A DNA stretch of 64,000 bases, from the NCBI GenBank assembly GCA_031273455.1, contig JAISRZ010000107.1, forward strand, positions 1-64,000. The letters are read 5' to 3'. The stretch is from Deltaproteobacteria bacterium (GTDB taxonomy: Bacteria > Desulfobacterota > Desulfarculia > Adiutricales > Adiutricaceae). The position numbers and the translations under genes were made by a program. Numbering within the stretch: the first letter of the stretch is position 1; every line of letters starts with the position of its first letter. Under the pieces are notes generated by a model. It had not been told where the DNA came from, did no database searches, and saw nothing but the letters and a program-made list of their open reading frames with translations. Below are positions 3,543-30,649 of this stretch, one piece after another.

Positions 3543-6500
3543 TTAGAAAAGGGCCGAGTTTGGGCTAACTTTATTGACGTAATAATCCGCTAGTTTTTTC
3601 TTTTTGGCCAATAAACAGTCCAAAGGCGTCTGGCTCCAGGATAAGGCTAATAAATCCAAATCGCAAATGGCTGGTTGGGTCTCGGACCATTTCTGGCTGT
3701 GTTTCTCGATTTCCGAGGCTAACCACCGATTGGCCCCGTAGACCTCCAAGGCCCGGGGCCAGGGGGAGCCCTTTTCCTGACTAATCTCGGCCAAGATGGC
3801 CATAAAGGTCCAAGGGGTCCCAAAGATGGAGCTAGTGGCGCAAATGTCGGCGGCTAAGGTCGCGACCTTGGGCGAGATTTCCCCGCCCTTTTTCCGAAAG
3901 GGCAAAGCTGGCCAGTTGTCTTGGATGTAAGCGGCCAAATGCGGTTGGACCCGATCCGGCGGCTCATGGTCCAAGGCCTTGGATAAACCTAACCGCCCGC
4001 CGTATTCCATTTTTAAGCGGTGGTCCGCCCGCCGCGATAAGTGCCAGGCTAGACCTAAAGCCGATTCCTCTAGATCCGTGGACCTTTGGAAAAAATCCAT
4101 AAACAAGCGGTCCCAAAAGTCGGCCGTGGTTTTGGACAAACCGTCTAGGGACTTTAAAAGGTAAAGCCCTAAAACCCGTTTACAATCGCTCCGCCGCGCC
4201 ATGCGCGTTAGTTGCGGCAAATAAGGCCTAGCTAAGACCAAGACCGCGTTATCGTCGTTTAAGTCAGTTAAAAAGACGGTCTTATCCCGGTCGTAAGCCC
4301 CCCGAACTAACCGCATCCAGACGGCTTTGTCCAGGTTCCAATCGCGGGCTTGCTTGGTCAAAAGATCCATGGCCGCCGCTTCAACGTCCACTGGCCCTTC
4401 CACGGGCAAAAAGCTTAAATCAATGACCCGGCTGAGCCGCCGAAAAACGGCCCGGGTGGCCAAGGCCTCAAACGGGGCTTTGGGGCTGGGGTCGCTTTCC
4501 CAACGGGGCTCGCCGCTAAAGTGGCCCAAAGGGCGTAAACCCGGCTCCGGCCGAACCGGGACCGCGGCCAAGTTGGGGCCCCAAGTGGGGACGCTTACGG
4601 CTTCCAGCCCCACCATGGGCGTTTGCGGGGTCCCTAAGAGCAAAGGGGTGGCTTGACCCGGGGTCGGGAGGTTTAGGACCAAGCCGCCCGCTAAAACTAA
4701 GCCAAAAAGGCTCTTTTTGGCGGCTTTGCGGATTTCATTCAGTAACCCGCTCATGAGTAGGCCCTTTTCCCCGGTTTTCTTGGGTTTGCCCTCATTAGCC
4801 TTATCTTGGTCAGACTTATCCTCGCCCGAGCTATCCTCGCCCGACTCATCGTTGTCGTCCTCGACTAAAGGCGGGGGCAGGGTGACAATCTCCGGGGCGG
4901 GTAAATTAAGTTGCCCATCCGCCGACATTTGGACCACGGTCCAGAACAGAAGGGCTAAGCTATCTTGCCGTTTCTCCAGCTCTTGAATGGTGTCGTCCCG
5001 GTTCCTTAACTGGCCTTGCAATTCCTCCAGTTTTCTCGCCTCTTGGTCCAAACGGTTCCTTAAGGCGCTCAGAGAGTCGGCTGAGCGGGCCCCCATGTAG
5101 TTGATGGCGGCTAAGGCCGCGACCACCTGGCCATCTTGGTTGGGCTGGTCTTTTAAGGCCTCCAGCTCCTTTTGCCGGGCCGCGAGCTCGGCGGCTTGGC
5201 GGTCGGCGGTCTCGCTTAAGCTTTGGTTGACCCCGGTTAGCCTTCGCGACTCGCTTCTTAAGTCAGCCAAGGCCTTGTCCTGGTCGGCCAGTTTTTTGGC
5301 CAAGCGGGCGATCTGGGCCTTTTGGGTGGCGAAACGCTCCTCCGAGGCGGCTTTTTCCTCATTATTGGCTTTGGCTTGGTTCCTTTGCCGCTCCAGCTCC
5401 ACCTCGGCCCGGTCCATCTGGCCTTTGAGGATGTTGTTTTCGGCCTCTAAGGTCGATAGCTGGCCTAAAACCCGGGTCAGCTCGGCTTGGTTCTCGGCTT
5501 CCGTGGCCAGGGGCGAAGGCCCGTTTTTGGCCGCGTGGAGGGCGGTTATCTGGACGAGCAAGGTGTCGCGTTGGTTCCAAGCCTCGGCTAAGGACAGGGT
5601 GTTTTCCACAAACTTTTGGATCAAAAAGGCGATCAGATCCCGGCGCTCGTTTAACTTTTCTTTGAACCCGGCTTGGGTCTCCAAAAGGGATTTCCGCTCA
5701 GCCCACAGCCCTTGGCGATCCTCGCGGACCCGATCGAGCTCGGCGGCCAGGTTGGCGTTCTCCTCCCGTAAGAAAAAAAGGACCGCTTGCCGGGCGTCCC
5801 CGGGGATGGGGCCTTGGGTCCAGAAGTCCAAGCCCGACTCCAAAAAGAAGCCCACTAAGGGCACTAGCTCGCTTAACCAAGCTTGATGCTTTTTTAAGGC
5901 TTGGGCCTGGTTTTGGACCAGATCCTCTAAGTCGGATTTAACGCTGGCCGCCTCGGCCCGTTGGGCGTTAAGAAGATTTTTTAGGTTGCGCAAACCCCGG
6001 GTCAGCTTTTCGTGGCGCAGGTCCGAGGCCACCAAAGCCACGCTCAGTTGGTTAACCACCCAAGTCTTTTCCTCGGAGTCGGTTTTGGCCCCCTCTTTGG
6101 TGACGTTTAATTCGCCCTCTAAGGCGTCGCGCTCGGCGGTGAGCTTGGTTAAATCCTTTTCCTTTTGGTTTAAGCGCTCTAAGTACTGGATTTCCTTAGT
6201 GGCCCCTTGGATGCGGATGCCAGCCTCCCGGGCGGCCCCTTCTTTTTTGAGGCGGGCGATCTCCTCTTGGGAGTTTTCCATATAGACCCGCGTGGCCGCC
6301 TCCCCGCGCCAGAGGGCCAGACCCAAGAGCTCTATTAAGGGTTTAAGGTTATGGTCCATCTCCGAATGGAGGGCGGCTAACTCGGCCTTTAAGCGCTCCT
6401 CAATCTCTTTGGCCGCCTTTAAGTCGTTTTGGGATTTTTCCCGGAGCGTGGCCGTTTCCCCTTTAACCGCGTCGGTTTCGCTCTTCGCCCGCTCGGCCTC

Positions 6501-8660
6501 GGCTCTAGCGGCCTCGATTTCCCCGCTAAGACGAGCCCTCTCGTTTTCTAAGCCCTCCAAGCGAGCTTGATAGGTCCCCAGCTCCGCTAAAAGCCGATGC
6601 CTTTTGGTGACCTGGGCGATTAAGGCTTTTTTGCTTTTGGCTAGCCTTATCTTTTGCTCTTCCCGCTCCAGATCGCTTTGGGCTAAGGCCAACTCCCGAC
6701 GGCGGTGGGAGTCCAACAAAGCCTGATGGGCCACGATTAAGCGATCCAACTGCTTCCGGTAGCCAGTGATGATTAAACCTAAGCTCTCCCGGTTAGCCGT
6801 GGCCTCGGCCAGCTCCTCTTGATGGCCCGCCAACTCGGCGGCTAAAGCCGCCTCTTGGCCTCGGGCTTGGTCGAGATTTAAGGCCAGCTCTTGGCCTTTA
6901 GCGGTTAGAGTTTTATTCTCCTCTTCCAAGTTTCGGGTTTGCAGATCTAAGGCCGACATTTGGCTGGCTAAAGCGTTTCTTTCGCTTAAAAGGTCCTTAA
7001 GTTGGCCTTCCCGGGTTTTGGCCCCCCGTAAAAGCTTTTGGAACTGGTTCTGACCGTGTTTGTACTGCTCGATTAAGTTGGCGTGACGGCGGCGGATCAA
7101 GGCCAACCGCTCCTGGTTCTCGGTTAACTGGCGGGTTAAGTTGGTCTTCTCCTGGGACACCTCTTTTAAATGCCGCCGGGCCCATTCCACTAGCTTCATG
7201 AAGCGGGCCTTAACTTGGCCAGCCTCGGACAAACGATCTTTTAAGGCTAAAAGCTCTTCTTTTAAGCGGTCCCTTTCCGAGGCCACGGCGTAAAGCTCTT
7301 CATAAAAGACGGTGGCCGAGGTTCCTAGACCCACGGGAGAGGGCCTTTCCGGGGGTTTGGGGGCGCTAGAGCGGCTTTTTAGGGCGTTTTTCAGGTCATC
7401 AAGACGGCGGTTGGCTCCCCTTAACAGAGCGGGGGAGCCGGTCTCCCGATCCACGGCCAAAGCCGCTCGGGCGGCTTTTCTTAACTCCTGGGAGCTAGAG
7501 AGGCGACTGGCGTTTAAAGTTAAGCGCGAGCGCAACTCCTCCAATAAGCTTTGGGTCCGGCCAAAGTTAATGGCCGCGTACAAATAGATCCGATCCAAGT
7601 AAACCGGTCGGCCCACTAAGGCCCCTATGGACCACCAGGCCTCGGCTAGCTCAGTCCGCCGGGCCAAGGTGGACTTTAATAAAACGTCCACGCTGGCGGC
7701 CAAACCTTCCCAGCGCTTTAAGCTCGACCCCCGACCGTCGCCAGCGGCCCCGTTCTCGGCTTCCTCCAAGGCGGCTAAGGCGTTGGCCAAGCGGCGGTCC
7801 GACTCTTGGCGGCGGAGGCTTAATTCCGAGCGTTTACCCTCCAAATCGCTTAACCGGCTTTCCAAGCTTTTGACCCGGGAGCCCCAGTCAGCCTCCCGCT
7901 CGGACCCGGCCTCCAAAGCCGCCTTTAAGCTATCCATCTCCTCAATTAAAAGGCGGGAGAGGTTTCGCCAGCGTTTTTGGCCCTCTAAGACCTGCCGGGC
8001 GATCCCCAGCTTTTCTTTGAGGTTATGGGTCAGATCGGTCACCGCCGGGGGCGTTTTCCCGGCGGTCCCCTCGGGGGCTTTGGCTAAAAGGCGGGTGGCC
8101 TCTTCCAGTTTCCGGGCTTTTTGGTAGATATCCAAAGACTCGGGCCGCCAGCGGGTGGCTAAGATCTCCAGCTCTTTGGCCAAGCTCTTGGCCCGATACA
8201 AGGAGGCCTTAATGGCCGAGAGCTCGCCAATGACTTTTTTATACAGAATGGGGTTAACCGAGTTGTAGCCGTCTAAAGTCTCCTCCACGGCGGCGATGGC
8301 CCCCACCACGGACTCGGGGCCCCTCGGGAAGGGGACGGACCTCCGGCGCTGGCTTGGGTCCTCTTTAGTCACGCCTAAGGTTTTTAGAAAGTAAGCGGTT
8401 AAACTGGGGGCGCCCAAGACGCGGGCCATGGAGCTAGTTAAGGTGGGCTCGGGGACTATAGGCTCGGGCGCGTAACCCTCCACGGGCCGGAAAATGGCTA
8501 GAGCTTTACTGAACTCCCGGGCCACGGCCAGAAGTTTGGGGACGTCTAGCTTTTCGCCAGCCTGATAACGCAAAAGCTCCAAGGTCTGGGGATCGTCCAT
8601 CTCCCAGTCGTTCCCGGGGCCTTGACGTTTAGCGCCAGACTGTCGCGAGTCCAAAGCCAT
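3543..8660 (-). CDS. Giant coiled-coil protein with one internal hydrophobic segment
   Basis: About 1705 aa, family not recognised. After ~140 residues of globular N-terminus, residues ~150-1240 are almost continuous heptad-rich, charged helix (many E, K, R, Q, A, L), like SMC/tropomyosin-type coiled coils, but no Walker motif was seen. An Asp/Glu/Ser-rich linker (~1265-1300) leads to a hydrophobic stretch (SLFGLVLAGGLVLNL, ~1315-1330). A ~370-residue C-terminal globular domain rich in Trp and Arg follows. The start chosen is ATG at 8660, preceded by GGGGGAGG 13 nt upstream; an in-frame TTG at 8684 lies before that box. The gene is first in an apparent operon with the MetE-like gene and ftsK, which hints at a cell-envelope or division role, but this is inference only. 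Confidence 0.75.
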   Translation of the reverse strand: MALDSRQSGAKRQGPGNDWEMDDPQTLELLRYQAGEKLDVPKLLAVAREFSKALAIFRPVEGYAPEPIVPEPTLTSSMARVLGAPSLTAYFLKTLGVTKEDPSQRRRSVPFPRGPESVVGAIAAVEETLDGYNSVNPILYKKVIGELSAIKASLYRAKSLAKELEILATRWRPESLDIYQKARKLEEATRLLAKAPEGTAGKTPPAVTDLTHNLKEKLGIARQVLEGQKRWRNLSRLLIEEMDSLKAALEAGSEREADWGSRVKSLESRLSDLEGKRSELSLRRQESDRRLANALAALEEAENGAAGDGRGSSLKRWEGLAASVDVLLKSTLARRTELAEAWWSIGALVGRPVYLDRIYLYAAINFGRTQSLLEELRSRLTLNASRLSSSQELRKAARAALAVDRETGSPALLRGANRRLDDLKNALKSRSSAPKPPERPSPVGLGTSATVFYEELYAVASERDRLKEELLALKDRLSEAGQVKARFMKLVEWARRHLKEVSQEKTNLTRQLTENQERLALIRRRHANLIEQYKHGQNQFQKLLRGAKTREGQLKDLLSERNALASQMSALDLQTRNLEEENKTLTAKGQELALNLDQARGQEAALAAELAGHQEELAEATANRESLGLIITGYRKQLDRLIVAHQALLDSHRRRELALAQSDLEREEQKIRLAKSKKALIAQVTKRHRLLAELGTYQARLEGLENERARLSGEIEAARAEAERAKSETDAVKGETATLREKSQNDLKAAKEIEERLKAELAALHSEMDHNLKPLIELLGLALWRGEAATRVYMENSQEEIARLKKEGAAREAGIRIQGATKEIQYLERLNQKEKDLTKLTAERDALEGELNVTKEGAKTDSEEKTWVVNQLSVALVASDLRHEKLTRGLRNLKNLLNAQRAEAASVKSDLEDLVQNQAQALKKHQAWLSELVPLVGFFLESGLDFWTQGPIPGDARQAVLFFLREENANLAAELDRVREDRQGLWAERKSLLETQAGFKEKLNERRDLIAFLIQKFVENTLSLAEAWNQRDTLLVQITALHAAKNGPSPLATEAENQAELTRVLGQLSTLEAENNILKGQMDRAEVELERQRNQAKANNEEKAASEERFATQKAQIARLAKKLADQDKALADLRSESRRLTGVNQSLSETADRQAAELAARQKELEALKDQPNQDGQVVAALAAINYMGARSADSLSALRNRLDQEARKLEELQGQLRNRDDTIQELEKRQDSLALLFWTVVQMSADGQLNLPAPEIVTLPPPLVEDDNDESGEDSSGEDKSDQDKANEGKPKKTGEKGLLMSGLLNEIRKAAKKSLFGLVLAGGLVLNLPTPGQATPLLLGTPQTPMVGLEAVSVPTWGPNLAAVPVRPEPGLRPLGHFSGEPRWESDPSPKAPFEALATRAVFRRLSRVIDLSFLPVEGPVDVEAAAMDLLTKQARDWNLDKAVWMRLVRGAYDRDKTVFLTDLNDDNAVLVLARPYLPQLTRMARRSDCKRVLGLYLLKSLDGLSKTTADFWDRLFMDFFQRSTDLEESALGLAWHLSRRADHRLKMEYGGRLGLSKALDHEPPDRVQPHLAAYIQDNWPALPFRKKGGEISPKVATLAADICATSSIFGTPWTFMAILAEISQEKGSPWPRALEVYGANRWLASEIEKHSQKWSETQPAICDLDLLALSWSQTPLDCLLAKKKKLADYYVNKVSPNSALF

Positions 8661-8684
8661 GAGTTTATTGTCGCCTCCCCCCAA

Positions 8685-10046: not shown

Positions 10047-10332
10047 TGAAGCCGCCTTTGTTAAAAATGGAATATTTAGGAGTTATTGAGGAAATTTTTA
10101 ATCCAAAAAAAAAACGAGGTGTTGACATAAGTCGCGAAAATGGGTGAGATCATTCCAGGGCGAAAAAGAGTCCCAGAACCACGTTATAAGGAGCGCGTCA
10201 ACCAAAAAAACGCCAAAAATAATCGGAAAAGCTCTTAGCTTAAGTCAGCACTTGTTTAAAAGTATTCAGTCCAAAAGACGCGACGCGCTATTCCAGTCAT
10301 CGGACCGCCAAACTTGGATTACGAAGCTTGGA

Positions 10333-12003
10333 TTACGAATCTTGGTCAAAAATAGCTTTGACTTCGCCCCGACCATAAATTCCAACGCCAACCGCGATAA
10401 CCTTGAGGCCTTGACGGCGGAGTTGTTCGCCGTAATTTTTATCGTGGATGAATTTTAAGGCTTCATTGGCTTTACTATTTAAAACGGTATCAGATTTCTT
10501 TTTGTCATCTAGTCGCTCATACTTCATTTCGATAATCGCGTAAGTCTCTTGGTTAAGACGCAGAGTTAAATCAGGATTCCCCATATAACCCTGTTCTTCA
10601 GGCATAGAACTCATCAGTAATCCCCGGCTATACGCCCAAAAAAGGGAATGGTAGAAAGATTCCTTACGTCGATACTCTTTATCGGGATGGAGAACAGCCG
10701 GAAGTTCGGCGTAAAGGGCCCCGATGATGTTAGTTAAGGATTCAGCGTCGCGCTTCATTAAGGCTTCTTTCAGCTCTAAAGCTTTCATCGCCTTATCACT
10801 GTCTTTAACTAAAATCTTAAATAAAGCCTCAGATAAGCCGTTATAAAATTCACCGCTTAACTCAGAATTAGGAACTTTAAAATTATAGTAAGTAATTTTA
10901 TTCCTAATATTTATTTTATCTACTGTTAAATAACCTGTCTGAAACAAAAGGGACGCTGGCGTGATTTGGCCTGGAATTAACGAAGTGATGTCTCTTAAGG
11001 GGACATCTTCCAACTTGTCAAAGGTGAGTTCACTAGCGTTGTCTTGAAACATATTTAATAAAAAATGTGTCGATGGAGAGTTCAATTTCCAATATTGGCC
11101 AAAAGATTGTTCCTTAAAAAAATAAAGGATCGATATCGGATTTAAGACGTTAGTCTGTCCATCCCAGGAATATCCATCATACCATTTAAGTATCTCCGCC
11201 TTAAGGTCCGCCACCGTGGATAAATGGGCTTGCTCGTCTACGGTTGGCGGATAATCATTTTCCTTTATGGATTGGAGAACAATGGGATAACGATCGCCAA
11301 AATAAAGATCCATCTCTTCTGGAGTAAAGCCGCAGATGGCCGCGTACTTCTGAACTAATGAAATGTCGTAAAGGTTGTTAAGTCCAGCCGATATCCCCAC
11401 CATTGAGTAACGAGTGACTCCGGTCACAAACGCGAAACGTATAAGTTCATTGACAGTCTTAAGACTCATGTAGAAAGAGGAGAGAACTTGGAGAAACGCC
11501 TTGGATAAGGGCGTATTTGGCGGAACTGAGCTAAGCGGACAATCATATTCGTCAATTAAAACCACAACGTTTTTTTTGTATTTATCGCGCAATCCAGTAA
11601 TCAGTTGAATAAGGGCGTTTTCAAAGTCTGATAACTTAATAGTCAGTTTCGCTTGTTCCGCCAAAAATTTAAGCCTATTCAGGATCGCCCGCTCAAGTTT
11701 TTGTGGGGAGGAACTGACTATACTCATATCCAATCTTAAGACAGGATGTTGAGGAAAATCATACCCTGATTTTTCAATTTGTAAGCCTTTAAAAAGACTC
11801 CTATCTCCGCTAAAGATTTCCGCGATGGTTTTCAATACTAAAGATTTGCCGAAACGTCTGGGACGGGAAAGGAATACCGCGTTCTCAGATCCCTTAATCA
11901 GTTCTAACAACATGCCTGTTTTATCCACATAGACTAAATCTTGTTTTATTAGCTCCTTAAAAGAAATTAAACTAGTTGATATTTGTTTTAAATAGGTATT
12001 CAT
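10333..12003 (-). CDS. AAA-ATPase-like / PD-(D/E)XK nuclease family (DUF1703), copy 1
   Basis: A 556-aa member of the AAA-ATPase_like (PF09820) plus PDDEXK_9 (PF08011) family. The N-terminal P-loop reads RPRRFGKS (residues 47-54) and Walker B VVVLIDEYD (146-154). The C-terminal nuclease signature is PD at 477-478 with E-M-K at 492-494, so all catalytic residues are present. The cellular role of the family is unknown; it is often multiplied in genomes of gut and symbiotic bacteria. The ATG start has AGAGG 6 nt upstream. It is the leftmost of four tandem paralogs, each with a related leader. Copies 1 and 2 are nearly identical over their last ~350 residues. Confidence 0.92.
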   Translation of the reverse strand: MNTYLKQISTSLISFKELIKQDLVYVDKTGMLLELIKGSENAVFLSRPRRFGKSLVLKTIAEIFSGDRSLFKGLQIEKSGYDFPQHPVLRLDMSIVSSSPQKLERAILNRLKFLAEQAKLTIKLSDFENALIQLITGLRDKYKKNVVVLIDEYDCPLSSVPPNTPLSKAFLQVLSSFYMSLKTVNELIRFAFVTGVTRYSMVGISAGLNNLYDISLVQKYAAICGFTPEEMDLYFGDRYPIVLQSIKENDYPPTVDEQAHLSTVADLKAEILKWYDGYSWDGQTNVLNPISILYFFKEQSFGQYWKLNSPSTHFLLNMFQDNASELTFDKLEDVPLRDITSLIPGQITPASLLFQTGYLTVDKINIRNKITYYNFKVPNSELSGEFYNGLSEALFKILVKDSDKAMKALELKEALMKRDAESLTNIIGALYAELPAVLHPDKEYRRKESFYHSLFWAYSRGLLMSSMPEEQGYMGNPDLTLRLNQETYAIIEMKYERLDDKKKSDTVLNSKANEALKFIHDKNYGEQLRRQGLKVIAVGVGIYGRGEVKAIFDQDS

Positions 12004-12193
12004 AAAAACCTCTGGTTAGGGCGCGATCGCTAAAAATCGTCAAAAATCGCGTGCCCTTAATAGGCGCCAAAAAGCTAGGGTCGACCATTGGCCGGGTGAC
12101 TGGGGCATATTTTTCCGTGTCCGGGGTCTTAGAGATAATAGGGAGACTCAACTATTTCGGAAAAAACAACAAAAATATAATTCTTATAATTTT

Positions 12194-12221
12194 ATTATAC
12201 AGGTCTTTAAAATGAAATCAA
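12194..12221 (-). promoter_or_regulatory. Sigma-70-type promoter of DUF1703 copy 1
   Basis: Reading leftwards: TTGATT (12221-12216), 16-nt spacer, TATAAT (12199-12194), about 190 bp ahead of the ATG at 12003. The same pair occurs at the same relative place before copies 2 and 4. Confidence 0.7.
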
Positions 12222-12249
12222 GTTTTTTTTTTGAGGCCGAGGACGGCTG

Positions 12250-12285
12250 GCCTGATAGACCAAATCATGGCGTGGTCTATCAGGC
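12250..12285. promoter_or_regulatory. 13-bp palindrome upstream of the copy 1 promoter
   Basis: GCCTGATAGACCA (12250-12262) and TGGTCTATCAGGC (12273-12285) form perfect arms around a 10-nt loop, 28 bp upstream of the -35 box. No T-run follows on either strand, so an operator or other protein-binding site is likelier than a terminator. It is conserved before copy 2 and degenerate before copies 3 and 4. Confidence 0.55.
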
Positions 12286-12548
12286 TAAAAAGACTTAAGG
12301 GCTCTTCCTCACCAGGAGGAAGTTTCCTCTCCACGAATATTTTAATCAATAAATCCTTCTTTAATAAAATTAAAATATTTAAACGTTATTAGTGATATTT
12401 TAACTAAAAAATATCAGACAAGGTGTTTACCCAAGACGCGAAAAAGGCGTGAGATCATCGTTCGCGCGAGAAATGGATCAAGTTACCCTGTCCAAAGGAC
12501 TCTTTACCGCTTTTCAGTTGTCGGATTCCCAAAGCTGGACGGTTTATC

Positions 12549-12720
12549 TTAGCCAAAAATAACTTCCACCTGGCCTTGGCCATCAACCCCAACGCCCACC
12601 GTCACCGTCTTCTGGCCTTGACGATGGGGCCGTTCGCTAGACAATTTTTCTTGGCTGGCTTTCAAGGCTTCTTGAGCCGCGCGCCGCAAAACGTCCGGAG
12701 GGTTGTCTTGGTCATCGGTC
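12549..12720 (-). pseudogene. Truncated tail of a DUF1703 gene (copy 3 type)
   Basis: The reverse strand encodes about 57 C-terminal residues nearly identical to the end of copy 3 (15204-15375), including the RRAAQEALKASQ region and the ending VEVIFG-stop. Homology breaks exactly where the right duplication block begins (12721). The 75 bp downstream of the stop (12475-12548) also match the 3' flank of copy 3. The rest of the gene is absent, so this is a duplication scar and not a functional gene. Confidence 0.85.
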
Positions 12721-13000
12721 GACATAAGTCGCGAAAATAGGTGAGATCTTTGTCAGGGCGAAAAGAGTCCCAGAACTACGTTATAAGGAGCGCGTCAACC
12801 AAAAAAACACCAAAAATAACCGGAAAAGCTCTTAGCTTAAGTCAGATTTTTTTAAAAGTATTCACGAAAAAAATTAAAAACATACTTTAAAGGCGCAAAA
12901 AGCTGAAAAAATAGATCAAGTGAGAATTACAATGTCCAAAAGACGCGATACGCCATTCCAGTCATCGAACCGCCAAGCTTGGATTACGAATCTTGGATTA

Positions 13001-14668
13001 CTAATCTTGGTCAAAAATAGCTTTGACTTCGCCCCGACCATAAATTCCAACGCCAACCGCGATAACCTTGAGGCCTTGACGGCGGTACTGTTCGCCGTAA
13101 TTTTTATCGTGGATGGATTTTAAGGCTTCATTGGCCTTACTATTTAAAACGGTATCAGATTTCTTTTTATCATCTAGTCGCTCATACTTCATTTCGATAA
13201 TCGCGTAAGTCTCTTGGTTAAGACACAGAGTTAAATCAGGATTCCCTATATAACCCTGTTCTTCAGCCCTAGAGCTCTTCAGCAATCCCAGGCAATACGC
13301 CCAAAAAAGGGAATGGTAGAAAGATTCCTTACGCCGATACTCTTCATCGGGATGGAGAACAGCCGGAAGTTCGGCGTAAAGGGCCCCGATGATGTTAGTT
13401 AAGGATTCAGCGTCGCGATTCATTAAGGCTTCTTTCAGCTTTAAAGCTTTTATCTCAATATCACTGTCTTTAACTAAAAGCTTAAATAAAGCCTCAGATA
13501 AGCCGTTATAAAATTCACCGCTTAACTCAGAATTAGGAACTTTAAAATTATAGTAAGTAATTTTATTCCTAATATTAATTTTGTCTATCGTTAAATAACC
13601 TGTCTGAAACAAAAGGGACGCTGGCGTGATTTGGCCTGGAATTAACGAAGTGATATCGCTTAAGGGGACATCTTCCAACTTGTCAAAGGTGAGTTCACTA
13701 GCGTTGTTTTGAAACATATTTAATAAAAAATGTGTCGATGGAGAGTTCAATTTCCAATATTGGCCAAAAGATTGTTTCTGAAAAAAATAGAGGATCGATA
13801 TCGAATTTAAGACTTTAGTCTGTCCATCCCAGGAATATCCATCGTACCATTTTAGTATCTCCGCTTTAAGGTCCGCCTCCGTGGACAAATGGACTTTCTC
13901 GTCTACGGTTGGCGGATAATCATTTTCCATTATGGAGTGGAGAACAATGGGATAACGATCGCCAAAATAAAGATCCATCTCTTCCGGGGTAAATCCGCAG
14001 ATGGCCGCGTACTTCTCGTCAAATGAAATGTCGTAAAGGTTGTTAAGTCCAGCCGATATCCCCACCATTGAGTGACTAGTGACTCCGGTCACAAACGTGA
14101 AATGCAAAAATCTACTAACAGTCTTAAGACTAGCGTAGAAATCAGAGAGAACAAGGCTATTACCATCTGATAGGGCTTTATTTTGAAGTTTTGAGCTAAT
14201 CGGGTAATCGTATTCGTCAAATAAAACCACAACATTTTTTTTGTATTTATCGCGCACAAGCTCAATAAGTTCTTTAAGAGCGTTTCCATAGTCAGTGGAC
14301 TCCAAAGTTAATTCTTCTTTTTTCGCTAAAAGGATTAACATATTAAGGATCGCCCGCTCCAGTTTTTCCGGGGAGGAACAGGTCAGACTCATATCAAATC
14401 TTAAGACAGGATATTGGGGAAAATCATACCCTGATTTTTCAATTTGTAAACCTTTAAAAAGACTCTTATCTCCGCTAAAGATTTCCGCGATGGTATCCAA
14501 TACCAAAGATTTACCGAAACGTCTGGGACGGGAAAGGAATATCGCGGTCTCAGATCCCTTAATCAGTTCTAACAATATGCCTGTTTTATCCACATAGACC
14601 CAATCATTTTCGATTAGCGCTCTAAAGGAAATTAAACTAGTTGATAATTGTTTTAAACAGGTATTCAT
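13001..14668 (-). CDS. AAA-ATPase-like / PD-(D/E)XK nuclease family (DUF1703), copy 2
   Basis: A 555-aa paralog of copy 1, with RPRRFGKS P-loop, Walker B VVVLFDEYD and the intact nuclease signature GNPDLT...IIEMKY. Nearly all differences from copy 1 lie in residues 10-200, especially in the segment after the P-loop domain (about 100-190). The C-terminal half is almost invariant, which suggests recent duplication or gene conversion. The ATG start has the same AGAGG ribosome-binding site and leader as copy 1. An ATPase-nuclease is likely; its target is unknown. Confidence 0.92.
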   Translation of the reverse strand: MNTCLKQLSTSLISFRALIENDWVYVDKTGILLELIKGSETAIFLSRPRRFGKSLVLDTIAEIFSGDKSLFKGLQIEKSGYDFPQYPVLRFDMSLTCSSPEKLERAILNMLILLAKKEELTLESTDYGNALKELIELVRDKYKKNVVVLFDEYDYPISSKLQNKALSDGNSLVLSDFYASLKTVSRFLHFTFVTGVTSHSMVGISAGLNNLYDISFDEKYAAICGFTPEEMDLYFGDRYPIVLHSIMENDYPPTVDEKVHLSTEADLKAEILKWYDGYSWDGQTKVLNSISILYFFQKQSFGQYWKLNSPSTHFLLNMFQNNASELTFDKLEDVPLSDITSLIPGQITPASLLFQTGYLTIDKINIRNKITYYNFKVPNSELSGEFYNGLSEALFKLLVKDSDIEIKALKLKEALMNRDAESLTNIIGALYAELPAVLHPDEEYRRKESFYHSLFWAYCLGLLKSSRAEEQGYIGNPDLTLCLNQETYAIIEMKYERLDDKKKSDTVLNSKANEALKSIHDKNYGEQYRRQGLKVIAVGVGIYGRGEVKAIFDQD

Positions 14669-14846
14669 AAAAACCTCTGGTTAGGGCGCGATCGCCAAAA
14701 ATCGCGTGCCTTAATAGGCGCCAAAAGGCTAGTATCGACCATTGGCCGGGTGACTGGGGACTATCTTTCCTTGTCCGGGGTCTTAGAGATAATCGGGAGA
14801 CTCAACTATTTCGAAAAAAAAACAAAAATATAATCCTTATAATTCT

Positions 14847-14874
14847 ATTATACAGGTCTTTAAAATGAAATCAA
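14847..14874 (-). promoter_or_regulatory. Sigma-70-type promoter of DUF1703 copy 2
   Basis: TTGATT (14874-14869), 16-nt spacer, TATAAT (14852-14847). Identical in layout to the copy 1 promoter. Confidence 0.7.
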
Positions 14875-14902
14875 GCATTTTTTTTGAGGCCGAGGACGAC
14901 TG

Positions 14903-14938
14903 GCCTGATAGACCACATCATGGCGTGGTCTATCAGGC
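14903..14938. promoter_or_regulatory. 13-bp palindrome upstream of the copy 2 promoter
   Basis: Perfect arms GCCTGATAGACCA (14903-14915) and TGGTCTATCAGGC (14926-14938), 28 bp upstream of the -35 box. Only the loop differs from the copy 1 element. Confidence 0.55.
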
Positions 14939-15203
14939 TAAAAAGACTTAAGGGCTCTTCCTCACCAGGAGGTAGTTTTCTCTCCGCGAATATTTTAATC
15001 AATAAATCCTTCTTTAATAAAATTAAAATATTTAAGCGTTATTAGTGATATTTTGAACTAAAAAATATAAAACAAGGTGTTTACCCAAGACACGCCAAGG
15101 CGCGAGATTATCGTTCGCGCGAAAAATGGATCAAGTTACCCTCTGTCCAAAGGACTCTATACCGCTTTTCAGTTGTCGGATTCCCAAAGCTGGACGGTTA
15201 ATC

Positions 15204-16883
15204 TTAGCCAAAAATAACTTCCACCTGGCCTTGGTTATCAACCCCAACGCCCACCGTCACCGCCTTCTGGCCTTGGCGATGGGGCCGTTCGCTAGACAAT
15301 TTATCTTGGCTGGCTTTCAAGGCTTCTTGGGCCGCGCGCCGCAAAATATCCTTAGGGTTCCCCTCGCCATCATCGGGCGCGTATTTTAGTTCGATAATGG
15401 CGGAAGTCTTACGGTAAAGACTAACGGTCAAATGAGGGGCCAGCGTAAAGCCCGGCTCCTCAACCTTAGCGAGCGATCCTAATCCCCGGCAGTATGACCA
15501 TAGAAGGGAATAGAAAAAAGATTCCTTATAACGACAATCAATTTCTTTAACCTTATCCTCGCGGGGATAAAGAGCCTCTGGGAGCGCGGCGAAAAGGTCC
15601 CCGATGATTTTAGTTAAGCGCTTGGCGTCGCGATCGAACAAGGCGTCTTTCAGCTCTATAGATTTGTCATATGAATTATTGCCTTTAATTAAAAGTTTAA
15701 ACAAAGAATCAGATAAAGCGTCATAAAATAACGAACTTATTTCAAAATTAGTAGGTTTAAGGTTACAATATTGTATACAATCCCTAACATATCCATTGGC
15801 TATCGTTAAATAACCTGTCTGAAACAAAAAGGGAACTGGCGCGATATGGCTAGGAGTTAGCGACGCGAGGTCGTTTAAGGGGACGTCTTGCGACTTGTCA
15901 AAGGTGAGCGCGCCAGCGTCGCCCTTAAAGACAGTCATTAAAAAATGTTTTGATGGAGCGGTTAATATCCAATATTGACCAAAAGAGCTTTTCTTAAAAA
16001 AACGAAGGATCGACAGGGAATTTAAGACTTTAGTCCGTCCATCAAAGGAATAGCCATCGTACCATTCAAGTATCTTAGCCTTAAGGTCCGCCACCGTGGA
16101 CAAATGGACTCTCTCGTCTACGGTTGGCGGATAATCCTTATCATTTATGGATTGGAGAACAGTGGGATATCGATCGCCAAAATATTGATCCACCTCTTCC
16201 GGGGTAAAGCCGCAGATGGCCGCGTACTTCTCGTCAAAAGAAATGTCGTAAAGATTGGTTAGACCAGCCGATAACTCCTTCACTGAGAAACGAGTGACTC
16301 CGGTCACAAACGCGAAACGCAGAAGATGATTGACAGACTTAAGACTAGCGTAGAAAGCGGCGAGAACTTGGTTATTGGCCTCGGCTAAGGACGCGTTGTG
16401 GATATTTGAGTCAACCGGATAATCGTATTCGTCAATTAAAAGCGCGACGTTATTATGGTATTTATCGCGCAATCCCGTGATTAGCTCTATCAGGGCGGTT
16501 TTAAAGTCCGTGGACTTCAAAGTCAATTCTTCTTTTTCCGCCGCCAGGTTTAACATATTAAGGATCTCCCTCTTCAGTTCTTCCGGGGAGGAACTGGCTA
16601 TACTCAAATCCAATTTTAAGACAGGATATTGGGGAAAATCATACCCTGATTGATCGATTTGTAAGCCTTTAAAAAGGTTCCGGTCTCCGCTAAAGATTTC
16701 CTCGATGGTGTCCAAGGCTAAAGATTTGCCGAAACGTCTGGGCCGGGAAAGGAATACGAAATTATTAGGTTCGTTAATTAGTTCTAACAATAAACCAGTT
16801 TTATCCACATAGACCAAGTTGTTTTCTATTAGATACTTAATATTACTTGCAGTAGTTGTGATTTGTTTTAAACAGGTAGTCAT
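15204..16883 (-). CDS. DUF1703 AAA-ATPase-like paralog, copy 3, nuclease Asp lost
   Basis: A 559-aa, more divergent paralog. The P-loop RPRRFGKS and Walker B VALLIDEYD are intact. In the nuclease domain, the PD of copies 1 and 2 is PH (APHLTV) while the downstream E-L-K is kept, so the metal-binding Asp of the PD-(D/E)XK motif is missing. A nuclease-dead ATPase is a plausible reading. The ATG at 16883 follows a GGAAG box. The 252-bp gap to copy 4 keeps a decayed form of the leader (GACCATTGGC motif near 16930, broken palindrome near 17018-17045) but no recognisable promoter, so it may depend on read-through from copy 4. Confidence 0.88.
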   Translation of the reverse strand: MTTCLKQITTTASNIKYLIENNLVYVDKTGLLLELINEPNNFVFLSRPRRFGKSLALDTIEEIFSGDRNLFKGLQIDQSGYDFPQYPVLKLDLSIASSSPEELKREILNMLNLAAEKEELTLKSTDFKTALIELITGLRDKYHNNVALLIDEYDYPVDSNIHNASLAEANNQVLAAFYASLKSVNHLLRFAFVTGVTRFSVKELSAGLTNLYDISFDEKYAAICGFTPEEVDQYFGDRYPTVLQSINDKDYPPTVDERVHLSTVADLKAKILEWYDGYSFDGRTKVLNSLSILRFFKKSSFGQYWILTAPSKHFLMTVFKGDAGALTFDKSQDVPLNDLASLTPSHIAPVPFLFQTGYLTIANGYVRDCIQYCNLKPTNFEISSLFYDALSDSLFKLLIKGNNSYDKSIELKDALFDRDAKRLTKIIGDLFAALPEALYPREDKVKEIDCRYKESFFYSLLWSYCRGLGSLAKVEEPGFTLAPHLTVSLYRKTSAIIELKYAPDDGEGNPKDILRRAAQEALKASQDKLSSERPHRQGQKAVTVGVGVDNQGQVEVIFG

Positions 16884-17135
16884 AGTGAACTTCCGCTTTA
16901 GAGTTCGAACGTCAAAAAGTTTTGGCCGACCATTGGCGCGACATTGCCGCGCGGTTGGGGCCTATCCTTGGCTTAGGGTCCAATATTTCCGCGGCCAAGG
17001 ACGTTTGGCCCCCCGTTTAGACCCCCTCATTACGAAGTCTATCCGGTAAAATGGGCTTAGGAGCTTTTACCCCCAGGCGGTGGCTTCATTTCCGCGGCTA
17101 TTAAATTTAATGAGGCCACCATTATTAAAAATGGC

Positions 17136-18893
17136 TCAAGAAAAATGAAAATCCAGGCCAAAGCAAGTGAAGCGCCTTTCTTTCCTCTGATCCTCAAAGC
17201 TGGACTCTGAATCGCCGCCAAAAACAACTTCCACGTCGCCTTGACCATAAATCCCAACGCCAACTGTCACTACCTTTTGGCCATTAAGGCGGAGTCGTTC
17301 GCCATAAATATTTTTTTGACTGGCTTTCAAGGCTTGATCGGCTTTACCGCTTAGAGTATCCGCGATACTCCCTCTGTGGCGGTCGCGGGCGTATTTCAGT
17401 TCGATAATCGCGTAAGTCTGATTTGTAAGACTCATTATCAACTGAGGAGCCCCCTTACCACCGGGCTTCTCAACTTGAGCGAGCGACAGCAATCCTCGGC
17501 AGTAGGCCCAAATAACAGCGCGATGGAAAGATTCCGTAAACCGACAATCTATCTCCTCAATACTAGCGCCGCGGAGACGGATAGACGTTGGAATCTCCTG
17601 GAAAAGGTAAAAGAAGAGGCGAGCTAAGGATTTGGCGTCGCGGGTCAATAAAGCGATTTCCAGTTCCTGAGCTTTCATTTTCTTATCACTGTCTTTAACC
17701 AAATAAATAAATAAAAAATCAGCTATGCCTTTATAAAATTTACTATTTAATTTATTATTAGGAACGTTAAAGTTAAAATAATGGATACAACCACTAACAT
17801 ATCCATTGGTTACCGATAAATAACCTGTCTTAAAGAAAAGGGAGCTTTGGGGTATTTGGCTAGGGGTTAGCGACGCCAGCTCGCTCATAGGGTCAACTTC
17901 CAACTTGACAAAGGGGCGCTCGCTAGAAGTGTCTTGAGTGACGCTCGTTGGAAAATTTGTCGATTGAGAGGTTAATTTACTACATTGTTTAAAAGAATGT
18001 TTCTTGAAAAAATTAAGAACCCATAATGGGTTTAAAACTTTAGTCTGTCCAGCGAAAGAATAGCCATCGGACCAATTTATGATCGCCGCCTTAAGGTCCG
18101 CCACCGTGGATAAATGGGCTTTCGCGCCGATGGTTGGGGAAAAATCATTTTCCTTGATGGAACGCAGAACAATGGGATAATGATCGCTAAAATATTGATC
18201 CAGCTCTTCCGGGGTAAAGCCGCATATGGCCGCGTACTTCTTGTCCAAAGAAATGTTGTCCAGGTTATTCAGCGCGGTCGACAACCCCGCCATTGGAATA
18301 CGAGTGACTCCAGTCACCAACGTGAAACGTAGAAGATTATTGACAGTCTTAAGACCAGCGTAAAAATCGGAGAGAGTTAGGATATTCGCCTCGGCTAAAG
18401 GCGTATTTGGCGGAACTGAGCTAACCGGACAATCATAGTCGTCAATTAAAACCACAACGTTTTTCTGGTGTTTATCGCACGTTCTTTTAATCAGTTCTTT
18501 AAAAGTATATCCAAAGCTCTTTGACTTCAAAGTTAATTCTTCCTTTTCCGCCAAAAATTTAAGTCTATTTAGGATAGTCAGCTCCAGTTCATCCGTAGAG
18601 GAACTGGTTATACCCATATCCAATCTTAAAACAGGATATTGGGGAAAATCATATCCCGCTTTATCGATTTGTAAGCCTTCAAAAAGACTCCTATCTCCGC
18701 TAAAGATTTCCTCGATGGTATCTAATATCAAAGATTTGCCGAAATGTCTGGGACGTGTAAGAAGTATTGATTTATTAGGGCCTTTAATCAGGTCTAACAA
18801 TAATTCTGTTTTATCAACATAGACGCGGTTATTTTCGATTAGCTCCCTAATGGAATTACAACCAGTTGAGATTTGTTTTAAACAGGTCGTCAT
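17136..18893 (-). CDS. DUF1703 AAA-ATPase-like paralog, copy 4, several motif changes
   Basis: A 585-aa product and the most divergent copy. The P-loop reads RPRHFGKS, Walker B has IDDYD for IDEYD, and the nuclease PD is PQ (APQLIM), although E-L-K is retained. It ends with about 24 extra residues after the usual VEVVFGGD terminus. The reading frame is fully open, so the changes are not simple decay. It has its own copy of the family promoter at 19071-19099 and a GGAGG-like site before the ATG. It is probably inactive as a nuclease, and ATPase activity is uncertain. Confidence 0.85.
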   Translation of the reverse strand: MTTCLKQISTGCNSIRELIENNRVYVDKTELLLDLIKGPNKSILLTRPRHFGKSLILDTIEEIFSGDRSLFEGLQIDKAGYDFPQYPVLRLDMGITSSSTDELELTILNRLKFLAEKEELTLKSKSFGYTFKELIKRTCDKHQKNVVVLIDDYDCPVSSVPPNTPLAEANILTLSDFYAGLKTVNNLLRFTLVTGVTRIPMAGLSTALNNLDNISLDKKYAAICGFTPEELDQYFSDHYPIVLRSIKENDFSPTIGAKAHLSTVADLKAAIINWSDGYSFAGQTKVLNPLWVLNFFKKHSFKQCSKLTSQSTNFPTSVTQDTSSERPFVKLEVDPMSELASLTPSQIPQSSLFFKTGYLSVTNGYVSGCIHYFNFNVPNNKLNSKFYKGIADFLFIYLVKDSDKKMKAQELEIALLTRDAKSLARLFFYLFQEIPTSIRLRGASIEEIDCRFTESFHRAVIWAYCRGLLSLAQVEKPGGKGAPQLIMSLTNQTYAIIELKYARDRHRGSIADTLSGKADQALKASQKNIYGERLRLNGQKVVTVGVGIYGQGDVEVVFGGDSESSFEDQRKERRFTCFGLDFHFS

Positions 18894-18940
18894 AGGAAAC
18901 CTCCGCTTAAGCGCGCGAACGCCAAAAAGTTTGGGCCGAC

Positions 18941-18974
18941 CCGCGCCGACCCTCGCCGACCCGCGTTGACCATT
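18941..18974. repeat. Short tandem repeat in the copy 4 leader
   Basis: About three and a half copies of a 10-bp unit, GCCGACCCGC with single-base variants, directly before the conserved GACCATTGGC motif of the family leader. This looks like local slippage. Confidence 0.6.
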
Positions 18975-19070
18975 GGCGCGACCTTGACCGCGCGCCTGGG
19001 GCTTGTCCTGGGCTTAGGGTTTAAGAAATAAACGGTTGACTTAACTTTTTTGGCTCAAACAACAAAAATA

Positions 19071-19099
19071 ATTATACATGCCTTAAAAAATTAAATCAA
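19071..19099 (-). promoter_or_regulatory. Sigma-70-type promoter of DUF1703 copy 4
   Basis: TTGATT (19099-19094), 17-nt spacer, TATAAT (19076-19071). The spacer sequence differs from copies 1 and 2 while both hexamers are conserved, which supports function. Confidence 0.7.
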
Positions 19100-19168
19100 G
19101 CCTATTTTTCCTTAACCCAAGGGCGGTGGGTTTCGCTTGGGGGCTCCTATGACGCGGTCTATGGGGGC

Positions 19169-19221
19169 GCCAGGGCCACTATGGCCACCAGGGCCACTAT
19201 GGCCACTAGGGCCACCAAGGC
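19169..19221. repeat. 18-bp tandem repeat between copy 4 and the radical SAM gene
   Basis: Nearly three copies of CCAGGGCCACTATGGCCA with a degenerate last unit. No coding role is seen. It lies just downstream of the radical SAM gene stop. Confidence 0.7.
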
Positions 19222-19242
19222 CCGCCAATTGCCCCCAAGACC

Positions 19243-27212: not shown

Positions 27213-27866
27213 CTAGTCAGCGTTAGGCCTGGCTAAACCTTGACCCTCATTTTTCTTAACTTGTAAGGCGCGAGCCCACATCTCGGCGAACTCGGGATCG
27301 TGGCGCTTTAAAAAGTACAAAGAGCTCACCGGTAGGTTCAGCTCAGCGGCGGCGGTCTCAATGGCTGACCCTTGGCTGACGGCCACAAAGAAAGGCCGAA
27401 AGTCCAGGTTTTTGAGTTTGGCGATCTTCTTTTCCCGACCAACGGCCACGGCTTCGACCCAAGCCGCGTCAAAGGCGGGGTCTTGGCGGCGGTTTTCGGT
27501 GAGCTGAATTAGGCAACGGCCCACCAAACGGGCGGCGGCGTTGACGGCGAGGCCACTATGCAAAAGCTCCAGGAACTTCTGCCGCACGTCAGCCTCAAAC
27601 TGAGCCCCAATTTCCGCGGCCTTAGCCCAAGCCGCGGCGAACTCCGGGTCGTTCCGGCGGCGATAAACGAAACACCCCTCCGATTTACCGGCCCGCATGG
27701 CCGACTTCCGAAAAGTTTGACCCGAGGCTAAAGCGGCCAGGAAAACTCGGTTAGTCTCCTTATAACTTTCGTTTTTGGACAAGGGCTCGCCCGTGGCCGA
27801 AAGGAGATTAGGCCCCGGGTAAGGCTTTAGGCGCTTAGCTCTGGTCTTGGGTGGCTGATAAGTCAT
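27213..27866 (-). CDS. Protein with three homeodomain-like (terminase small subunit-like) repeats
   Basis: 217 aa from the ATG at 27866, chosen because GGAGG lies 6 nt upstream; an in-frame GTG at 27905 would add 13 residues. Three ~50-residue repeats share the plan hydrophobic-AA-x-G/L...R..DPxFxxxWxxA, with DPEFAAAWAKA, DPAFDAAWVEA and DPEFAEMWARA closing each unit. This resembles the helix-turn-helix of small phage terminase subunits and related DNA-binding proteins. It is rich in basic residues. A DNA-binding role is inferred; no phage genes are nearby. Confidence 0.65.
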   Translation of the reverse strand: MTYQPPKTRAKRLKPYPGPNLLSATGEPLSKNESYKETNRVFLAALASGQTFRKSAMRAGKSEGCFVYRRRNDPEFAAAWAKAAEIGAQFEADVRQKFLELLHSGLAVNAAARLVGRCLIQLTENRRQDPAFDAAWVEAVAVGREKKIAKLKNLDFRPFFVAVSQGSAIETAAAELNLPVSSLYFLKRHDPEFAEMWARALQVKKNEGQGLARPNAD

Positions 27867-28348
27867 GGCCCACCTCCGGCGCTGGCGGCCATAACGCGCC
27901 GCCACGAAACAAAAATCATTATAAAATAGCCTATTTCTTAGGGCTTTGTCAATAACAAATCAAGTTATTGATTGAAATAGCCAGGCTTCACTCTTAATAC
28001 CGTTGGCTAAAGGGGGTTTCAGTTAAGCCTAAAAATAAGCTTAACGCTAATTGTGGCGTGGGTTTGCGCCCGAAAAAAAGGGTATTTAAAAACTTGACAG
28101 ACGGCGGTGAATGACGGAAAATAAACCCTAAAATAAATTATGAATATTTATCTCAGTCAATCGAGGTGAATATCAGATATCAAATAAGTTTATGAATTTA
28201 GCTTTAATCATTAGCTAAAGAATAGCGTCGGGGACGTTAGCGATAAATGGCCTTAGGCGGTGATTAGGTTTAGCGGCCGGTGGGAGGCTGGCGCTTAAGG
28301 CTCGCTAATGCTTTTTTGAAGCGTTTTACAACTCATTGGAGTAAATCT
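27867..28348. other. Divergent intergenic region
   Basis: About 480 bp between the repeat protein (minus) and the YgiW-like gene (plus). A TTGACA hexamer is present at 28094-28099 on the plus strand but lacks a good -10 box at the right distance. Nothing else is recognised. Confidence 0.4.
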
Positions 28349-28925: not shown

Positions 28926-30020
28926 ATGAACGTTAACGAGTTAACTAGCGAAAGCGTCATACCGGCCCTGGAAATAGATCGCCTTATCGCGCGCATGACC
29001 GATTCCCGGCGGGAAATGGATTATCGGACCCGGGATTACACCATCGACTTTTTGGTGGCCTTGTTTAAGGAGGGCGAGTTCTTCATTAACCCGGAGCTCC
29101 AACGGAGTTTTGTCTGGGACGATACCCGCAAATGCCGCTTTATCGAGTCTATTTTCTTGGGGTACCCCATACCCACCATGTTCTTTTCGGACCACGACGA
29201 CGGGCGTTGCGACATCATTGACGGAGCCAAACGGGCGGCCACTTTAGAGGAGTTCGTTAGCGACGACTTGGTCTTAACGGACCTGGAAAAGCTCACTTGT
29301 CTCAATGGGTTTTCCTTTCAGCGTTTGCCAGCGCCCATCCAAAAGAAGTTTCGGTCCGCCACTTTACGCGTCATCGCCTTGGACCAAGACACCCCTTTGG
29401 AGGTTCGGCGAGAGATTTTCACCCGAGTCAACCCCCCGAGCCAAGGTAATCAGACCGCCACGCGCTTAAAAGCCCACGCCGGGGAGTTCACCAATTTTTT
29501 GCTGGAGTGCTCCGAAAAACCCCTTTTCCATAAATTATGCCCCATTAGCGACCACTGTAAGAAAAGTTGCGAGCATGTGGAGCTGGTCACGCGCTTCTTC
29601 GCTTACGCCCGTGATTACCAATCGTTTGAGAGCGAAGTGGACGACTTTTTGGACCGGTTTGTCGCCCGTCATCGCCAGCGTTTTGACCGAGCCGCTTTGG
29701 AAGAGGAGTTTTCGTCCACCCTGGACTTTGTGGATAAACTTTTTCCCCATGGTTTTAAGCGGCGGCCCCATTGTAAGTTCACCCCTAGGCCCCGGTTTGA
29801 GGCCATCGCCGTGGGCGTGGCCTTGGCTTTACGGGAAAAGCGCGATTTAAGCCCAGCGGTCCCTTTGGACTGGGCGGATATTGATTCCGAGCGGGGGGCT
29901 CGTTTTAAACACCACACCACCACTCACGCCAAAGACAATAAAAAACGTTTAGCCGGGCGCGTTGAGTACGTTAGGGATATGCTTCTACACGGGAAGGAGC
30001 TTAATGGTCATAGTTTATAG
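28926..30020 (+). CDS. Stand-alone DUF262 (ParB/GmrSD-N-like) protein
   Basis: A 364-aa protein with the DUF262 signature: INPELQRSFVW (residues 54-64), IESIFLGYPIPTMFF (73-87) and DIIDGAKR (96-103). The usual catalytic DGQQR is DGAKR here. The domain is known from type IV restriction (GmrSD) and related NTP-dependent nucleases, where a DUF1524 HNH nuclease follows. No HNH motif is seen in this C-terminus, which is basic with LAGRVEYVRDML near the end. The start follows an AAGGAG that directly abuts the ATG; a further AAAAGG lies 9 nt upstream. No partner nuclease is adjacent, so a defence role is only possible. Confidence 0.8.
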   Translation: MNVNELTSESVIPALEIDRLIARMTDSRREMDYRTRDYTIDFLVALFKEGEFFINPELQRSFVWDDTRKCRFIESIFLGYPIPTMFFSDHDDGRCDIIDGAKRAATLEEFVSDDLVLTDLEKLTCLNGFSFQRLPAPIQKKFRSATLRVIALDQDTPLEVRREIFTRVNPPSQGNQTATRLKAHAGEFTNFLLECSEKPLFHKLCPISDHCKKSCEHVELVTRFFAYARDYQSFESEVDDFLDRFVARHRQRFDRAALEEEFSSTLDFVDKLFPHGFKRRPHCKFTPRPRFEAIAVGVALALREKRDLSPAVPLDWADIDSERGARFKHHTTTHAKDNKKRLAGRVEYVRDMLLHGKELNGHSL

Positions 30021-30390: not shown

Positions 30391-30620
30391 TATAGTTAGA
30401 GTAATTAGGTATTGTTTATAGTATATATTATTAATATCAACCTAATTTAACAAAGAAATGCTAAATTCGCTTTCACCTCAAAAATATCGCCTATTCCCCC
30501 TAAGATTGAAACGGCCAAAAAGCTGGCGGCCTATGGCTAGGGGGGTTTGGGGGAAATTCGTTAGCCTTTGGTCATTTTTATATGACTTGATTTCTCCTTT
30601 CAACGCTGGAATAATCTTTA
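30391..30620. repeat. ~225-bp direct repeat, left (R1)
   Basis: Starts at TATAGTTAGAGTAATTAGG and ends at GGAATAATCTTTA. It matches 31988-32212 with scattered substitutions and small indels. It lies immediately upstream of the AlbA_2-type gene. Confidence 0.9.
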
Positions 30621-30649
30621 ACTATTCGTTTACATTAGGATGCTCGAAC

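Follow-up and report, generated by a model that had tools for sequence, protein, structure and literature searches.

The window, by which we mean the whole stretch of 64,000 nucleotides that was analysed, contains an insertion at 10047–19242, between ispG (GcpE) and a radical-SAM gene, with a G+C content of about 40–48% compared to about 54% around it. Within it lie four uninterrupted DUF1703 open reading frames, all on the minus strand and together spanning 10333–18893: copy 1 (10333–12003; 556 aa), copy 2 (13001–14668; 555 aa), copy 3 (15204–16883; 559 aa) and copy 4 (17136–18893; 585 aa). The family, which joins an ATPase domain (PF09820, AAA-ATPase_like) to a PD-(D/E)XK nuclease domain (PF08011, PDDEXK_9), was described by Knizewski et al. 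in 2007 (PMC1913061). The array shares with that description the domain order, the RPRRFGKS Walker A, the DEYD Walker B, the PD...ExK nuclease motif and the motif-I Glu, and its nearest members in other genomes reach 46–48% identity. All motifs are intact in copies 1 and 2 (RPRRFGKS, IDEYD/FDEYD and PD...EMK). The defining Asp of the described family is missing from copies 3 and 4. Copy 3 has both ATPase motifs (RPRRFGKS and DEYD) and PH...ELK for the nuclease motif (Asp478 to His, codon CAT); copy 4 has PQ...ELK (D478Q, codon CAG) and also lacks the Walker-A Arg (R50H, giving RPRHFGKS) and the Walker-B Glu (E152D, giving IDDYD). Both retain the nuclease Glu and Lys despite the loss of the Asp. 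The four open frames and each of these motifs are exactly as a preliminary description had claimed, and that observation is confirmed. All four copies match PF09820 (E ≤ 1.1e-41). PF08011 lies above the Pfam cut-off in copies 1 and 2 only and is unlisted for copies 3 and 4 at E ≤ 0.001; these two nonetheless align end to end with the others, and the AlphaFold model of copy 4 has the same C-terminal elements, together with a C-terminal extension of ~24 aa predicted with low confidence.

Copies 1 and 2 are the products of a tandem duplication of ~2.6 kb. One unit (10121–12704, minus strand) consists of copy 1, a spacer and a relic, and is 91–92% identical to the other (12718–15359, minus strand), which consists of copy 2, the spacer and the 3′ end of copy 3. 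The relic, at about 12508–12725 on the minus strand, is a truncated copy-3-like C-terminus at the duplication junction, with a 58-aa ORF at 12549–12725; the earlier count of four copies had missed this fifth, truncated one. A promoter of its own had also been thought special to copy 4. The same TTGATT-16/17-TATAAT match precedes copies 1, 2 and 4 alike, and the total of 22 promoter-like matches is within about 1.5 s.d. of that in shuffled sequences (16.0 ± 4.1). The strongest inverted repeat at the array is a 14-bp hairpin (14903–14938), which has a weaker counterpart at 12250–12285; a search around the array for mobile flanks and other strong inverted repeats found none beyond this hairpin.

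In six of six genus relatives ispG and the radical-SAM gene adjoin each other with no DUF1703 gene between them, and several more distant relatives show the same adjacency; the array is an insertion missing from this site in the six. The insertion contains no integrase, transposase or accessory gene, and its spacer DNA has only short, weak matches elsewhere in the genome. The source genome has 29 PF08011 and about 84 PF09820 matches, and some of its DUF1703 members elsewhere carry in-frame stops or are short fragments. Most genomes in the bacterial family share this expansion, with up to about 240 first-look candidates in one of them; it was not found in the sampled other families of the order or class. 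Members also occur on plasmids and viral contigs in several phyla. Among the other genes of the window are one for a 1713-aa protein, seemingly mostly coiled-coil, downstream of ispG (3543–8684), one for a small protein with a sub-threshold match to the Sf6-like terminase small subunit (27213–27905), and two adjoining genes for a GmrSD_N (DUF262) protein in which no GmrSD partner domain is evident (28926–30020) and a Schlafen/AlbA_2 protein with a winged helix (30458–31987). The lower-GC stretch that holds the last two is a possible defence island.

The losses in the four copies had been described as a progressive series. They fall instead into two clades, 1+2 and 3+4, so what looked like a gradient is really the difference between these. 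Copies 3 and 4 group as sisters throughout, whether in the whole protein, the N part, residues 301–555 or the nuclease alone (support 86–98), and they have rare residues in common, for instance I519S, that are absent from every other member. At position 478 the intact copies have GAT, where copy 3 has CAT and copy 4 has CAG. Given the sister pair and these codons, a single shared loss is the simplest history: the Asp was probably lost once in the ancestor of copies 3 and 4, with a second step later in copy 4 (GAT>CAT>CAG). The loss is thus probably older than the split between the two, which would mean that disarmed genes persisted. No ortholog of either copy was found in other species, where the best match is 48% identical over the full length.

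Selection on these copies was estimated with our own implementation of a branch codon model on 10 genes, which assumes a single tree although block swapping occurs (see below). The background omega is about 0.44, which is high for a gene family as a whole. The preliminary description had proposed that copies 3 and 4 are dead but maintained, with dN/dS as one of the checks, and here the two copies part: over the whole gene omega=1 is rejected for copy 4 (omega 0.67; 2ΔlnL 5.3) and is not rejected for copy 3 (0.72; 2ΔlnL 2.8). Over residues 1–300 omega is 0.44 in copy 4 (omega=1 rejected, 2ΔlnL 13.3) and 0.65 in copy 3, compared to 1.17 and 0.89, respectively, over residues 301–555. Within the latter part, residues 301–439 have an omega of about 2 in both copies, significantly above background but not above 1, while the nuclease residues 440–555 have 0.50 in copy 3 and 0.67 in copy 4, neither significantly different from background or from 1; relaxation is therefore strongest in 301–439, where the raised omega could equally reflect positive selection.

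Under neutrality 18 stop codons would be expected in copy 3 and 25 in copy 4, and none is found (P = 9e-9 and 2e-11); with neutrality limited to a quarter of each branch, the probabilities would be 0.009 and 0.002. The frames have stayed open far beyond neutral expectation, and the dead copies were thus retained. Additionally, neither copy has lost E448, E492 or K494 (chance 0.04 if neutral), hinting that the pocket may still do something. The proposal of maintained dead paralogs holds, then, for the retention of the frames; it does not hold for the dN/dS values, which are unlike those of well-kept regulators, nor for copy 4, which is the worst at near-invariant sites, and the earlier interpretation as a whole is partly supported. 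In our reading, copies 3 and 4 may have been kept for some use that does not depend on the nuclease, and copy 4 is by now eroding.

Motif residues were counted in a profile-based sample of 202 full-length members: 28 from the same genome, 97 from family relatives and 77 from named genomes of many phyla, these last picked for their resemblance to the query and, in part, for an intact Walker A. The near-invariance of the PD Asp, which the preliminary description had singled out for checking, is borne out (Asp478 kept in 194 of 202), as is that of Glu492 (197), Lys494 (194), the Walker-A R50 (191) and the Walker-B E152 (196). Of the 125 members from the expanded family, 18 have a broken nuclease triad, compared to 0 of the 77 others (p=2e-4, the 77 being partly picked by an intact Walker A), and the losses in the expanded family are spread over every motif. 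Of the 14 ATPase-broken members, ten have a broken nuclease as well (p=2e-7), a coincidence expected if both activities belong to one machine. All six changes at E152 are accompanied by a change at R50 or K53 (p=6e-7). It has been proposed that the extra Walker-A arginines substitute for sensor residues (PMC1913061); the coupling of R50 and E152 fits this proposal, though shared decay would yield the same correlation. Among the eight members without the Asp, seven keep the Glu and Lys and four keep all tested ATPase residues. Copy 4 shows 16 departures at 75 conserved columns. At the 45 columns with conservation of 95% or more it has 8, exceeding each of 114 others, and copy 3 has 3. It has the most near-invariant-site violations of 118 members, in both domains, in a sample chosen by a Walker-A pattern that left out some variants.

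Similar examples are found elsewhere. The same genome has another tandem pair (L062, contig C152; 86% identical) with PT for PD and RPRRFGRT for Walker A; the Walker-A K>R change and the loss of PD are common to both copies, and the frames are open. No ortholog of this pair was found in other species (best 39% identity over the full length), and its intact relatives in other genomes are no closer than about 40%. In a further tandem pair of this genome (L071, contig C133) both copies carry RPRGFGKS and one carries IDDYD; the nuclease motif of its complete copy is intact. Long-form members at two loci of another genome (G002; L336 and L355) have Ala in place of the PD Asp, another independent disarming.

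A different kind of change distinguishes the two intact copies. Copies 1 and 2 are 23–31% diverged in 11421–11720 (minus strand; about codons 95–195 of copy 1), compared to about 6% elsewhere, spacer included. Within this block some parts of copy 1 look like copy 4 or copy 3; at codons 151–175, for instance, copy 1 has 85% nucleotide identity to copy 4 and 65% to copy 2. The same part of the gene stands out in other members: of 22 segments along the protein, residues 101–125 are the most divergent in 8 of 21 independent recent pairs (p=2e-6; the segment was chosen after seeing copies 1 and 2, a pair that is not among the eight). Over residues 96–145 both dS and dN are several-fold above the rest, or saturated, in about ten of the 21 independent pairs, across phyla (for example, dS of 1.38 compared to 0.13, 1.65 to 0.19 and 1.15 to 0.25). 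A dS raised together with dN is what replacement by recombination, and not point mutation alone, would give, and, as judged from the sequences, residues ~96–145 are exchanged between DUF1703 paralogs by recombination in several phyla. The pairs include a triple tandem array in Bacteroidales (L289) and a pair in Persicobacter; other loci with a swapped block are L309/L278, L132/L134 and L083/L112, among others. AlphaFold models the block in copy 2 (pLDDT 88.8, pTM 0.86) as two confident helices, 100–117 and 127–142, between a strand and Walker B.

The DUF1703 family and its expansions are already known. The most similar case is that of Cardinium cCpun, where a large expansion (25 paralogs) likewise shows intragenic recombination (PMC6387759). 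The present case differs in its number of ATPase-domain matches (about 84), in a tandem array whose duplication junction and relic can still be seen, in sister copies with a dead nuclease, and in recombination that is concentrated in a single block ahead of Walker B. Recombination among DUF1703 paralogs was thus known from that study, but we did not see confinement to one such block reported there, and the localised swap appears to be new.

The best Foldseek match is Apaf-1 (E 7e-6, TM about 0.25), and ORC subunits and EfAvs5 (an Avs5 STAND protein) are also matched. Whole-chain superpositions on Apaf-1 and ORC are weak (TM 0.2–0.34), so that “STAND-like” is a lead only. A sequence search of solved structures detected no DUF1703 relative, a search of NCBIfam found nothing, and PHROGs gave one weak, uninformative match. 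The combination of ATPase and nuclease resembles the logic of STAND and AAA+ defence ATPases with nuclease effectors, such as Avs, and of RADAR/PARIS, which are listed among the systems sharing PF09820 matches (PMC10952713). Unlike these, the array has no significant match to PADLOC models (weak partial ones only, E about 0.002–0.003), no accessory gene and no known sensor repeats, none of the STAND type being seen in the AlphaFold model or among the fold matches. Judging from fold and motifs, intact members are most likely ATP-switched nucleases, in which a triggered AAA+/STAND-like ATPase module would activate the C-terminal PD-(D/E)XK nuclease.

Several explanations can be weighed for the disarmed copies. 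They might be pseudo-nuclease regulators that co-assemble with copies 1 and 2 via the ATPase domain and damp or tune the nuclease, as the age of the Asp loss relative to the 3/4 split, the selection on both frames to stay open and the constraint on the ATPase half of copy 4 would suggest. The Asp-less members that keep the Glu and Lys or every tested ATPase residue, and the C152 pair with its shared PT and Walker-A K>R, also point this way. However, both R50 and the Walker-B Glu are gone from copy 4, which holds the record for conserved-site violations, neither copies 3 and 4 nor the C152 pair have an ortholog in another species, and the swapped block, a possible determinant of partner specificity, sets copies 1 and 2 apart from the others; we regard such regulators as possible, if doubtful. 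That copies 3 and 4 are plain pseudogenes, open by chance, is improbable. The omega near 1 over residues 301–555, the raised site violations and the losses across many motifs in the expanded family are what such genes would show, but the open-frame arithmetic, also when a quarter of the branch is taken as neutral, disfavours a pure pseudogene, and the ATPase half of copy 4 rejects omega=1.

A broader alternative is that DUF1703 genes are selfish, homing-like elements whose nuclease drives their own spread, the dead copies being a late stage in a cycle of invasion, degeneration and loss. A DUF1703 homolog is reported to belong to the Medea selfish factor (PMC6387759), and the many copies, the entry into a conserved gene pair with no transposase or integrase beside the array, the members on plasmids and viral contigs in several phyla, and the dead and broken copies alongside intact ones are all consistent with this. 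Lineage expansions may, however, reflect immune or competition functions, and the swapped block suggests diversifying recognition and not a single cut site; we think this very improbable. It is also conceivable, though unlikely, that residues ~96–145, with their two helices between strand 2 and Walker B, are a cassette-like specificity module exchanged between tandem paralogs across phyla, with nuclease-dead paralogs kept as partners and cassette donors. If true, block exchange in DUF1703 would be a diversification system for an ATP-switched nuclease.

The explanation that we favour, and hold to be somewhat on the probable side, is that the array is a lineage-specific block of DUF1703 paralogs, horizontally gained or transposed, that evolves by tandem duplication, exchange of one helical block and gene decay, and that encodes an ATP-switched nuclease together with the retained, disarmed copies 3 and 4. 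In this scheme the ancestor of these two would have lost the metal-binding Asp of its nuclease, and the frames of its descendants would have stayed open, with the ATPase half of copy 4 constrained while the middle and the nuclease part drifted. Both may have been used for some time independently of the nuclease, by sharing an ATPase assembly or as donors for block swapping. Copy 4 would later have lost ATPase residues as well, and is probably on its way out.

DUF1703 is a widespread and repeatedly expanded family, and the array offers a natural experiment within it: active copies that are nearly identical, with most of their differences in one block, stand beside long-retained copies without the Asp. 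Two questions thereby become testable: what is recognised by the swapped block, and whether the ATPase has a role in the absence of nuclease activity.
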